Of a stretch of 64,000 nt of DNA, positions 15,914 through 59,770 are shown one piece after another (position 1 is the first letter of the stretch; each line of letters starts with the position of its first letter). Below the pieces are notes generated by a model that was not told the DNA's origin, made no database searches, and worked only from the letters and a program-made list of their open reading frames with translations. This DNA comes from Candidatus Bathyarchaeota archaeon (GTDB taxonomy: Archaea > Thermoproteota > Bathyarchaeia > TCS64): positions 38,260 through 102,259 of the forward strand of contig JAPKYO010000047.1 of the NCBI GenBank assembly GCA_026394265.1, written 5' to 3'. The position numbers and the translations under genes are program-made.

Positions 15914-15972
15914 TTTTATGTACATTTTCGTGCATTTTTCGGGCGTTTTCTATACATTTTCGCGCTGTTTTT
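15914..15972. repeat. Helically phased T-tract array
   Basis: Runs of four or five T begin at 15914, 15925, 15935, 15946, 15957 and 15968: intervals of 11, 10, 11, 11 and 11 bp. This is near-perfect phasing with the DNA helix and predicts curved DNA. The words between the tracts (for example CGTGCATTTTT and TTATGTAC) recur in the array at 9268-9327 on the other strand. The array lies between lpdA and the GTPase gene. Confidence 0.7.
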
Positions 15973-16031
15973 CGGCGTGTTGGGGAGCCTCTTATTAGAC
16001 CCACGGCGGTTGTCTAGGTGGGTGACCCGGT

Positions 16032-57818: not shown

Positions 57819-58301
57819 GTGGTCGATGCTCGACTTCTCAGCCGGTGCGGGATTTACTGCGGCGCATGCTTCATCTACAGGGCGGAGAGGGACGGCGGCG
57901 CCTTGCTGGATGAGGTGGCGAAAAGGTACAACGTCCCCAAGGAGGAGATAAGGTGCAACGGCTGCTCCGGTCCACACGCCGAGCAGTGGCGAAACTGCCA
58001 GGGGTGCAACCTTGTAGCCTGCCAGAGGCGCAGGGGAATCGGGAACTGCGCACAGTGCGAGGAGTTCGAGACGTGCCCCGACTACGGGTACCTCACCCGC
58101 TTCGCCGCTTACAGGGGCGAGGACTTGATGAGGAACCTGAAGCGGATCGAATCCGGCGACTCGGGCCTCCTCGAGGAGCAGGAGCGGCGGTGGAGGTGCC
58201 CCCGATGCGATGCCCCCCTCATGTGGTACGATAACAAGTGCCGCCGCTGCGGCGAGAAGGTCAGAGAAGAACCGATCACAATGGACGGCTTCAGAGAGTA
58301 A
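57819..58301 (+). CDS. DUF3795-type cysteine-rich protein
   Basis: 160 residues. RCGIYCGACFIYRAE and NGCSGPHAEQWRNCQGCNL, then CAQCEEFETCPDYGY, are the Cys clusters of DUF3795. An extra zinc-ribbon tail follows (RCPRCDAPLMWYDNKCRRCGEK). It probably binds zinc or an iron-sulfur cluster. The family has no known function. The GTG at 57819 is used because the conserved Cys-Gly-Ile-Tyr-Cys start lies close to it. Confidence 0.8.
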   Translation: MVDARLLSRCGIYCGACFIYRAERDGGALLDEVAKRYNVPKEEIRCNGCSGPHAEQWRNCQGCNLVACQRRRGIGNCAQCEEFETCPDYGYLTRFAAYRGEDLMRNLKRIESGDSGLLEEQERRWRCPRCDAPLMWYDNKCRRCGEKVREEPITMDGFRE

Positions 58302-58338
58302 CTTCATGCCTTCAGCGGCGCCACCCGGTCACACAGCC

Positions 58339-58366
58339 AAGATAAGGGACGTAATTACGCACCTTA
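58339..58366 (+). repeat. Left inverted repeat of the Cas2-like unit, containing a 24-bp palindrome
   Basis: The 28 bases at 58339-58366 are the exact reverse complement of 58735-58762. Within them, 58343-58366 is a palindrome with arms TAAGGGACGTAA and TTACGCACCTTA, only two mismatches per arm. It ends 7 bp before the ATG of the Cas2-like gene, so it may also be its operator. Confidence 0.8.
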
Positions 58367-58372
58367 AATGGG

Positions 58373-58657
58373 ATGACCCGGAGAAGCCTCGCCGACACCT
58401 ACTACGGGGAAGCTGATGACGAACCCTGCGAGGCGGAGACCACGTGGCTCCTCCTATACGACTTCAAGGGCATAAAGCCGGGCACCAAGTTCTGGGCCAA
58501 CCTAAAACGCCTGGCCGCTAAAGACGCCGGCGCGGGCCTCATCCAGTACAGCGTCTTCCTCACCCGCAGCGGAAGGGTCGCGAAGGCGGCTAAGAGGCTC
58601 GCTGAGCATTACGGGGCCGAGACATTCACATTCGCGGCCACGCAAGCCGCAACATAG
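58373..58657 (+). CDS. Cas2-like ferredoxin-fold protein
   Basis: 94 residues. TWLLLYDFKGIKPGTKFW resembles the first strand and loop of Cas2, with Asp30 at the place of its conserved Asp; GLIQYSVFLTRSG (55-67) resembles its central QYSVF strand; the end is a helix and strand (AAKRLAEHYGAETFTF). No cas1 gene or CRISPR array lies in the window. The gene is enclosed by 28-bp exact inverted repeats. It is the only gene of this unit. Nuclease activity, or a role in DNA or repeat binding, is possible but inferred. Confidence 0.6.
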   Translation: MTRRSLADTYYGEADDEPCEAETTWLLLYDFKGIKPGTKFWANLKRLAAKDAGAGLIQYSVFLTRSGRVAKAAKRLAEHYGAETFTFAATQAAT

Positions 58658-58660
58658 TCA

Positions 58661-58684
58661 TATGGTACGTAATTACGTACCATA
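58661..58684. repeat. Perfect 24-bp palindrome after the Cas2-like gene
   Basis: TATGGTACGTAA and TTACGTACCATA are exact reverse complements with no spacer. It shares the CGTAATTACG core and the outer layout of the two flanking repeats. It begins four bases after the Cas2-like stop codon. Confidence 0.85.
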
Positions 58685-58734
58685 AACGAACCCTGTATTG
58701 CCGCCGTTGCCGAGGGATCATCGAGACCGGATCA

Positions 58735-58762
58735 TAAGGTGCGTAATTACGTCCCTTATCTT
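58735..58762 (-). repeat. Right inverted repeat of the Cas2-like unit
   Basis: The exact reverse complement of 58339-58366 over 28 bases. The inner 24 bases (58735-58758) form the same near-palindrome. It lies 42 bp before the 3' end of the SDR gene, so it is not that gene's promoter. No short target-site duplication is seen outside the repeats. Confidence 0.8.
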
Positions 58763-58803
58763 TGGATCCCTTAGCGAATCCGCCACTCCGAGAACGCTCA
58801 CTG

Positions 58804-59637
58804 TCATCCCTTCTCAAGCGCCTCCCTGAGGCTGTTCGTCCCCTTCTGGTAGTCTCTCCACATCTTGCCGCCGGTGACGCCGCCGTCGACGACGAGGTTC
58901 TGCCCCGTCACATACTTGGAGTCGTCGCTGGCCAGGAAGAGGGCTGCCCTCGCCACGTCCTCGGGCATTATGGGTCCGCGTAGTGGCTGGGCGTCCCTGA
59001 AGGCATCCTCGATTATGTGCAGCTTCGCCTCAGCCTGGTCCCTCGTCAGGTTTCGGGCTATCCCGATCATGGGCGTAGGTATGTAGCCGGGGCTGACGCA
59101 GTTCACCCGTATCCCGGCCTCGCCGAGTTCCATGGCGACGCTCCGGGTAAGCTGTGCTATCCCCGCCTTCGATGCGCTGTAGATGTGGTTGCCGAAGCCG
59201 GCCTGGAGGGCTGCGGTGCTCGCGGTGTTTATGATGCTGCCCGAGCCCTGCCCCCTCATCACCGTGGCGGCGTGCTTCACCCCCAAGAATGCGCCCCGGA
59301 GGTTGACCCTGATGGTCCTGTCGAAGTCCTCGACCCTGACCCCCTCGATGGGGCCGACTGCGCCGACGATGCCCGCGTTGTTGAACATCACGTCGAGGCG
59401 CCCCCAGGTATCCACGGCTGCCTTCACCGTGTCTCGGACGTCTTCTTCGTTGGTCACATCCGTGTGGCGGTAGATGACGTTTCCCCCGATCTTCTCGGCG
59501 AGGCGCCTGCCCCTCTCGTCTTCCACGTCTGCGGCGACTATCCTCGCCCCCTCCGAGGCGAAGAGGCGCACACTCGCCTCACCGATCCCGCTTGCGCCAC
59601 CGGTGACGATGGCTACCTTTCCTTCGAGTCTGCCCAT
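58804..59637 (-). CDS. Short-chain dehydrogenase/reductase
   Basis: 277 residues, classical SDR. Nucleotide site VTGGASGIGEASVRLFASEG; NNAGIVGAVG; catalytic INTASTAALQAGFGNHIYSASKAG with Ser, Tyr and Lys (YSASK); and CVSPGYIPTPM. Asp in VAADVEDE after strand two points to NAD preference. Substrate unknown; similar to glucose 1-dehydrogenase and 3-oxoacyl reductases. ATG at 59637 is chosen; a TTG at 59652 is possible. Confidence 0.9.
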   Translation of the reverse strand: MGRLEGKVAIVTGGASGIGEASVRLFASEGARIVAADVEDERGRRLAEKIGGNVIYRHTDVTNEEDVRDTVKAAVDTWGRLDVMFNNAGIVGAVGPIEGVRVEDFDRTIRVNLRGAFLGVKHAATVMRGQGSGSIINTASTAALQAGFGNHIYSASKAGIAQLTRSVAMELGEAGIRVNCVSPGYIPTPMIGIARNLTRDQAEAKLHIIEDAFRDAQPLRGPIMPEDVARAALFLASDDSKYVTGQNLVVDGGVTGGKMWRDYQKGTNSLREALEKG

Positions 59638-59770
59638 AGCTATCACGGACAATATCCCTGGGAGGCTATTTCACGCTATCCCGCTCCCCCCTGCGCGTGA
59701 GTGCGTGTGCTGCCCGAGCACATGGAATAGCTTATCTCGAAGCACCGGTCCCCTGTTTTTAGTGTTCGCT

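Follow-up and report, generated by a model that had tools for sequence, protein, structure and literature searches.

What would a solitary Cas2-like gene be doing between copies of a palindrome of its own? The question is posed by a 64-kb stretch of a Candidatus Bathyarchaeota contig (64,000 nucleotides; hereafter the window), for which an earlier note had proposed either a small mobile unit or a palindrome-binding Cas2-like regulator.

The unit and its protein

The unit is bounded by two 28-nt arms (58339–58366 and 58735–58762) that form a 100% complementary inverted repeat with 368 nt between them. Each arm holds a 24-mer (palindrome 1, 58343–58366; palindrome 3, 58735–58758) with dyad pairing at 10 of 12 positions, and a further 24-bp palindrome (palindrome 2, 58661–58684) has a perfect dyad. 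Between the arms, on the forward strand, lies an open reading frame for a 94-residue protein (58373–58657); palindrome 1 is centred 18.5 nt 5′ of its start codon, palindromes 2 and 3 15.5 and 89.5 nt 3′ of its stop codon. The palindrome type is TAAGGTACGT-AATT, and its core, GTAATTAC, occurs three times in the window, always at the unit (0.20 expected; 0 of 100 shuffles reach three). The exact repeats, perfect third palindrome and enclosed gene of the earlier note are confirmed, and counting the 24-bp consensus, as it had suggested, gives three copies in the window, all at the unit (up to three mismatches; 0.00 expected). A DUF3795 gene lies to the left (57819–58301, forward strand) and a short-chain dehydrogenase to the right (58804–59652, reverse strand); no target duplication around the unit is seen by eye. 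The note had also reported no CRISPR array, and Tandem Repeats Finder agrees: its sole array in the window (15914–15975) is 1.9 copies of an AT-rich 32-bp unit, not CRISPR-like. Cas1 had no Pfam match among the 12 window proteins scanned (the 94-residue protein, the DUF3795 protein and ten neighbours).

Judged alone, the window protein is hard to place, with no Pfam match up to E = 10 and E = 0.056 against the PADLOC Cas2 model; the Cas2 link made in the note is carried by the family. A protein database yielded 55 relatives via the window protein and 117 via a profile of 27 sequences, mostly 92–104 residues long and none with a precomputed Pfam domain. Among 56 diverse members, 28 match PF09827 (CRISPR_Cas2) and 31 match one PADLOC Cas2 model at E ≤ 1, the best at 5.9 × 10−5 (23.6 bits, just under the cut-off of 23.8) and 9.4 × 10−7, respectively. 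At this threshold no other Pfam family is matched by more than two of the 56, no PADLOC model outside Cas2 by more than four, and transposase families, including the tyrosine (Y1/HUH) type, are absent from the Pfam matches. Structure prediction, the check put forward in the note, agrees: two models (mean pLDDT 86.6 and 89.1), of the window protein and of a copy in genome G417 (G417b), are closest to Cas2/VapD in Foldseek searches of the PDB. The best three matches listed for the window protein are Cas2/VapD (E 0.014–0.044), and the best 20 listed for G417b are Cas2 or VapD (best E 0.0042), at modest E-values and TM 0.4–0.5; rows bearing only locus names (for example, rows 1 and 3 for G417b) we take to be Cas2/VapD.

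From profiles and fold, the family forms a separate branch within the Cas2/VapD superfamily; its members stand alone and carry a basic arm at the N terminus. Its near-invariant residues include M1, R3, Y29, D30, F31, N43, Q58, S60 and Y80. It is like the CRISPR Cas2/VapD nucleases in fold, in the conserved Asp, in the profile matches of relatives and in the YDx and QxSV motifs; it is unlike them in its N-terminal arm and private palindromes, and in having no array in the window or cas1 among the scanned proteins. D30, the Asp ending the first strand, is kept in at least 90% of the A2 and A3 members (it is lost in the G416 copy), and it occupies the position on which catalysis by Cas2 and VapD is said to centre (PMC10491678). 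The conserved Asp may leave room for a putative nuclease step.

The closest relative (locus L001 in genome G001, JAUYEB010000144.1, a Candidatus Bathyarchaeota MAG) has a protein 89% identical to that of the window, the same right neighbour and all three palindromes unchanged from those of the window. Within the family of G001 (Bathyarchaeia), relatives occur in 7 of 27 genomes at nine places, two genomes having two copies; matches were obtained in 10 of 256 genomes of the class, three of these weak, and in 13 of 398 in the phylum sample. No relative was found in viral contigs, phages or plasmids, and no partner gene was found to recur beside the close-clade copies. At L001 the dehydrogenase is covered by two matches (L001:1259–2172), a ~74-column insertion repeating part of the gene. 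Weak relatives of ~73 residues (E about 1 × 10−7 to 1 × 10−6) form convergent pairs in G044 (L079:1500–1948) and G028 (L078:1501–1950); no such palindromes are seen there by eye, and one has a stop within the match.

Sites paired with each gene copy

Sites were picked by hand for eight copies (the window, six close-clade copies and G289), the start codon of L050 being set to 2875; hand-picked sites also underlie the compensatory-change analysis and one permutation. On the 5′ side, the closest site has its centre 12.5–30.5 nt ahead of the start codon in 8/8 copies; on the 3′ side, the centre of the first site lies 3.5–22.5 nt beyond the stop codon in 7/8, and in G415a and G417a this site overlaps the stop codon. 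Tandem downstream copies are present at G417a, G417b and G414. By eye, the asymmetric centre of GTAGT-type loci faces one way in 10/10 downstream sites and the opposite way in 4/6 upstream sites; at G417a the upstream site is direct, not inverted, relative to the downstream.

The type of site changes with the gene copy: GGCGGTAGT in G414, ACGAAATAATTTCGT at G417b and a CAACCTRTAGT-type palindrome at G415a and G417a. G415 and G417 each carry two gene copies with differing sites, and these paralogue pairs are the best, internal control for copy-specific sites. A flank test free of picked sites compared the 80 nt 5′ of the start with the stretch from −15 to +140 nt around the stop, leaving out L051 and L030, whose starts are truncated, and L001, a near-duplicate of the window; none of the site tests used the weak relatives in G028, G044 and G564. 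Across the eight close-clade loci the observed total is reached in 2 of 40,320 permutations, a result with which permutation of the hand-picked sites agrees. Locus by locus, P ≤ 0.012 in seven of eight, G416 giving 0.03 with 20-mers and 0.10 with 16-mers. At seven of these eight loci the upstream and downstream flanks have a common site of ~20 bp, and this site differs between loci. Such copy-specific sites suggest a separate DNA signal for each protein, read by that protein. By dyad score alone, few single flanks are remarkable.

The earlier note had asked whether the palindromes always flank the gene and whether they recur elsewhere in the genome; by its own standard, the answers tell partly against it. 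Flanking holds at seven of eight close-clade loci and breaks down in the distant clade, where the flank test on 11 loci is not significant and 10 have no matching flank pair, the exception being L028 (G289; P 0.012–0.015). As to recurrence, the close-clade core TAGTATTSRCTA has 17 copies in G414, G415, G417 and G418 taken together, 16 at Cas2-like genes and one away; G416 has three copies, none at its gene, and G423 and G001 have zero. The departure is G352, where 24-bp sites that agree in length and in their outer half-site (TAAGGTGTGCAAATGCACACCTTA-like) occur at 10 places (~9 loci, two of the places apparently being a single locus at the ends of overlapping contigs): two sites flank the gene and about seven lie elsewhere. 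Among the 17 genomes of the G352 family, sites are present in two of three gene-bearing genomes and one of 14 gene-less genomes, with controls at 0. G289 has two sites at its gene and four other places, all with three mismatches, as has the site in the gene-less genome; in G340, the third gene-bearing genome, the gene is shortened and interrupted by a stop inside the match, and it has no site.

Several G352 sites away from the gene (L094, L107, L114–L128) sit just 3′ of stop codons; some are near nucleotide-sugar epimerase-like genes and two lie just after paralogous PAPS-reductase-like genes (names by eye). Among 18 loose G352 sites, three are in reading frames and 7 of the other 15 fall close to a stop codon; for random points between genes the share is 29%, so the difference is not decisive. 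A regulon was considered and rejected, the close-clade core being almost only at Cas2-like genes and the outlying sites of G352 too few.

A different motif accompanies the distant clade. Within ~0.3 kb of the gene at 8 of 12 loci (L020–L024 and L026–L028) there is an ORB-like motif; at L023, L024 and L027 the motifs form oppositely oriented pairs. Elsewhere the pattern occurs at no more than one place each in the window, L001, L031 and L047–L054, with none near the window's unit, and L025 has one such place, 7.5 kb from its gene. The distant-clade gene often stands beside a ~130-residue wHTH-like gene and an HTH+CBS gene. Sulfolobus oriC1 is described as having AT-rich DNA between inverted ORBs (PMC12141716), and the distant-clade loci with ORB-like motifs are candidate replication origins with a Cas2-like neighbour. 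UBP, the ucm-binding protein of Sulfolobus origins, differs in its described structure (PMC12141716) and probably does not belong to the family.

Loss, decay and exchange of the unit

One orthologous junction, from an M19-like peptidase to a flavodoxin-like or M24-like peptidase gene (names by eye), is found in several states. G415 and G417 have the gene there, with three and four sites; G414 is gene-less with two decayed palindromes, and G418 is without gene or palindromes. The gene was lost and its palindromes left behind, and empty sites, raised as a question in the earlier note, do exist both with palindromes and without. At the window's own junction, G422 has 67 bp between the dehydrogenase and an M3 peptidase, and G419 and G423 have another gene. 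Remnants keep only the upstream palindrome and first codons: 20 nt at G001:C76, and 25 codons followed by a stop at G415:C50. Solo window-type palindromes occur once each in three genomes that yielded no gene, G404 (there inside a reading frame), G406 and G411, as well as at G001:C2; G001 has the window type at seven places. The contig G001:C76 (L031:1–2430) holds a second cluster of three window-type palindromes and one degenerate, the first followed by the initial 20 nt of the gene; between the first two lies a gene pair resembling toxin–antitoxin (by eye).

The window and L001 differ at 4 of 95 third codon positions in the Cas2-like gene, far fewer than in the neighbouring dehydrogenase (45/163, P = 9.6 × 10−7), hydrolase (86/270, P = 4.6 × 10−9) and SWIM gene (18/73, P = 1.3 × 10−4), so the unit was exchanged recently between two lineages. 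The little-diverged stretch (about 58243–58800, limits approximate; identity ~94–97% from 58301) extends past the left arm to take in the final ~60 nt of the DUF3795 gene, and homologous recombination therefore fits better than cutting at the repeats. Precise transposition was rejected on this overrun and on the missing target duplication. Between the two genes there are 10 nonsynonymous and 4 synonymous codon differences, so purifying selection is not evident on this short time scale, and the palindromes show 0/72 differences against 18/335, a borderline conservation (P = 0.053). Over a longer comparison, G415a and G417a differ at 41 of 89 third positions in the gene (neighbours 196/428, 83/164 and 36/104) and at 29 of 178 first and second positions; here the gene has stayed in place, diverging like its neighbours and under purifying selection.

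Candidate mechanisms and known systems

Our favoured reading, with a probability of roughly 0.55, is that a stand-alone Cas2-fold protein, as a dimer, occupies the palindromes of its own locus and keeps its promoter repressed; we infer both the binding and the repression, and it is in this form that the palindrome-binding regulator of the earlier note survives. The locus would have two parts, the protein and its own 24-bp palindromic sites. The protein would bind a site as double-stranded DNA, a homodimer placing one subunit on each half-site (in the window about TAAGGTACGT, around a 4-bp AATT centre). The upstream site would cover the core promoter of a leaderless transcript, such that binding would block the gene's own transcription; downstream sites would add binding and possibly form a loop around the gene, and the unit would move between lineages by recombination and disappear by deletion. 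In leaderless archaeal genes the core promoter lies at about the position of the upstream site, 12.5–30.5 nt 5′ of the start. This position, over a predicted promoter, and the private specificity of the sites fit an autoregulated DNA-binding protein. The four gene-bearing site sets contain 48 single-arm changes, five compensatory and two other double changes, with 8.0 compensatory changes expected if the arms vary independently. Single-arm changes are rarely compensated, and therefore a dimer on duplex DNA fits better than a hairpin; together with the upstream-site position, these substitutions make autorepression by a Cas2-fold dimer the best reading. Also in its favour are the shared flank sites of the close clade, the differing sites of the paralogues in G415 and G417, the near-confinement of the core TAGTATTSRCTA to the genes, the distribution of sites and gene in the relatives of G352 and the purifying selection between G415a and G417a. 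Counting against it are the downstream sites, unneeded for simple autorepression, the null flank test in the distant clade, the weak G416 locus, the few flanks that stand out by dyad score, the gene-less solo sites and the want of purifying selection between the window and L001.

The main rival is a REP/RAYT-like mobile system, in which the Cas2-like protein would cut or pair the palindromes and the gene or single palindromes would spread and be lost, leaving solos. We hold this possible, at well under even odds. Palindromes flank the gene, the window's outer pair being an exact inverted repeat and the GTAGT-type loci showing their orientation bias; presence is patchy, at different places in the 7 of 27 genomes, two of them with two copies; and the empty sites of G414 and G418, the remnants at G001:C76 and G415:C50, the solo sites, the exchange seen in third positions and the catalytic-type Asp all point the same way. 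Exchange, patchiness and empty sites likewise uphold the earlier note's small mobile unit, which is let down by the missing target duplication, the lack of a transposase family in the matches of 56 members and a boundary that overruns the left repeat into DUF3795. The gene of G415a and G417a, moreover, stays put and evolves like its neighbours, there is no genome-wide burst of palindromes except the few sites in G352, and compensatory changes are not in excess in the gene-bearing sets. That last count also weighs on the idea of a VapD-like RNase whose own mRNA's end hairpins, the palindromes, control the protein or act as an antitoxin: pairing is unprotected (48 against 5, with 8.0 expected), and no partner gene recurs beside the close-clade copies. 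VapD structures among the best 20 Foldseek matches listed for the second model, palindromes at both gene ends and the tandem downstream copies of G417a, G417b and G414 speak for it, and we consider it improbable. An RNA hairpin as such is not supported by the four gene-bearing sets; the six solo or remnant window-type sites are less clear (14 single-arm changes, 5 compensatory against 2.7 expected). Finally, the palindromes might serve some other protein of the host, such as a regulator or origin binder, with the Cas2-like gene among them by chance, as the ORB-like motifs at 8 of 12 distant-clade loci, the G352 sites away from the gene and the solo sites in gene-less genomes might hint. Paralogues in one genome have different sites, each on both sides of its gene, the site mostly accompanies the gene among the relatives of G352, and no ORB-like motif lies near the window's unit, all of which make this very improbable.

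Several known systems border on this one. Like an insertion sequence, the unit has inverted repeats; target duplication (by eye) and transposase are absent. PaaX likewise has a Cas2-like domain within a DNA-binding regulator, and one member of the family matches PF20803 weakly (E = 0.04); PaaX carries further winged-helix DNA-binding domains, unlike the present family, in which the Cas2-like domain is accompanied by nothing more than a short N-terminal arm. A survey reports no detectable CRISPR-cas loci in 23 complete Bathyarchaeota genomes (PMC12669027), whereas a paper on Bathyarchaeia viruses (PMC10848311) mentions a host CRISPR array and a viral Cas2-like protein. The latter, from a chiyouvirus, resembles the present protein as a stand-alone Cas2 homologue in the Bathyarchaeia world; it is viral and comes with mini-CRISPR arrays (PMC10848311), and the scan of viral contigs gave no relative of the present family. 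RAYT genes are described as always flanked by two inverted REPs, orthologues remaining in place while the REPs change; protein and palindromes change together, and palindromes sometimes accumulate only near the gene (PMC2817692). Our unit is alike in being a small gene between palindromes, at some loci inverted, that change with the protein and also between orthologues that keep their place, and in having palindromes mainly near the gene in the close clade; it is unlike in belonging to a Cas2-like family without a tyrosine transposase, in having few palindromes per genome and in showing no compensatory excess in gene-bearing sets. Membership of REP/RAYT fails on transposase and copy number, yet the unit may work like one. 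That archaea possess a REP/RAYT counterpart built on Cas2, with a solitary nuclease recognising and cutting private palindromes and with gene and palindromes spreading, exchanging and decaying together, seems doubtful to us.

No description of a Cas2-like gene with private flanking palindromes was found in the open-licence PMC literature. Both candidate kinds, an autoregulated DNA-binding protein and a palindrome-flanked mobile gene, are known; the Cas2 fold alone in either role would be new. If the Cas2-based REP/RAYT counterpart were true, it would mean that a Cas2 protein can recognise palindromes by their sequence in a setting other than CRISPR, and would offer a possible picture of the role of Cas2 before it joined Cas1. 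The ORB-like origin motifs beside distant-clade members are a second lead. A Cas2-fold family that is present also in Bathyarchaeia and tied to copy-specific private sites allows a direct, cheap test of specific DNA reading and cutting; it bears on the reason for nuclease activity in Cas2 proteins and on the part their ancestors played ahead of CRISPR.
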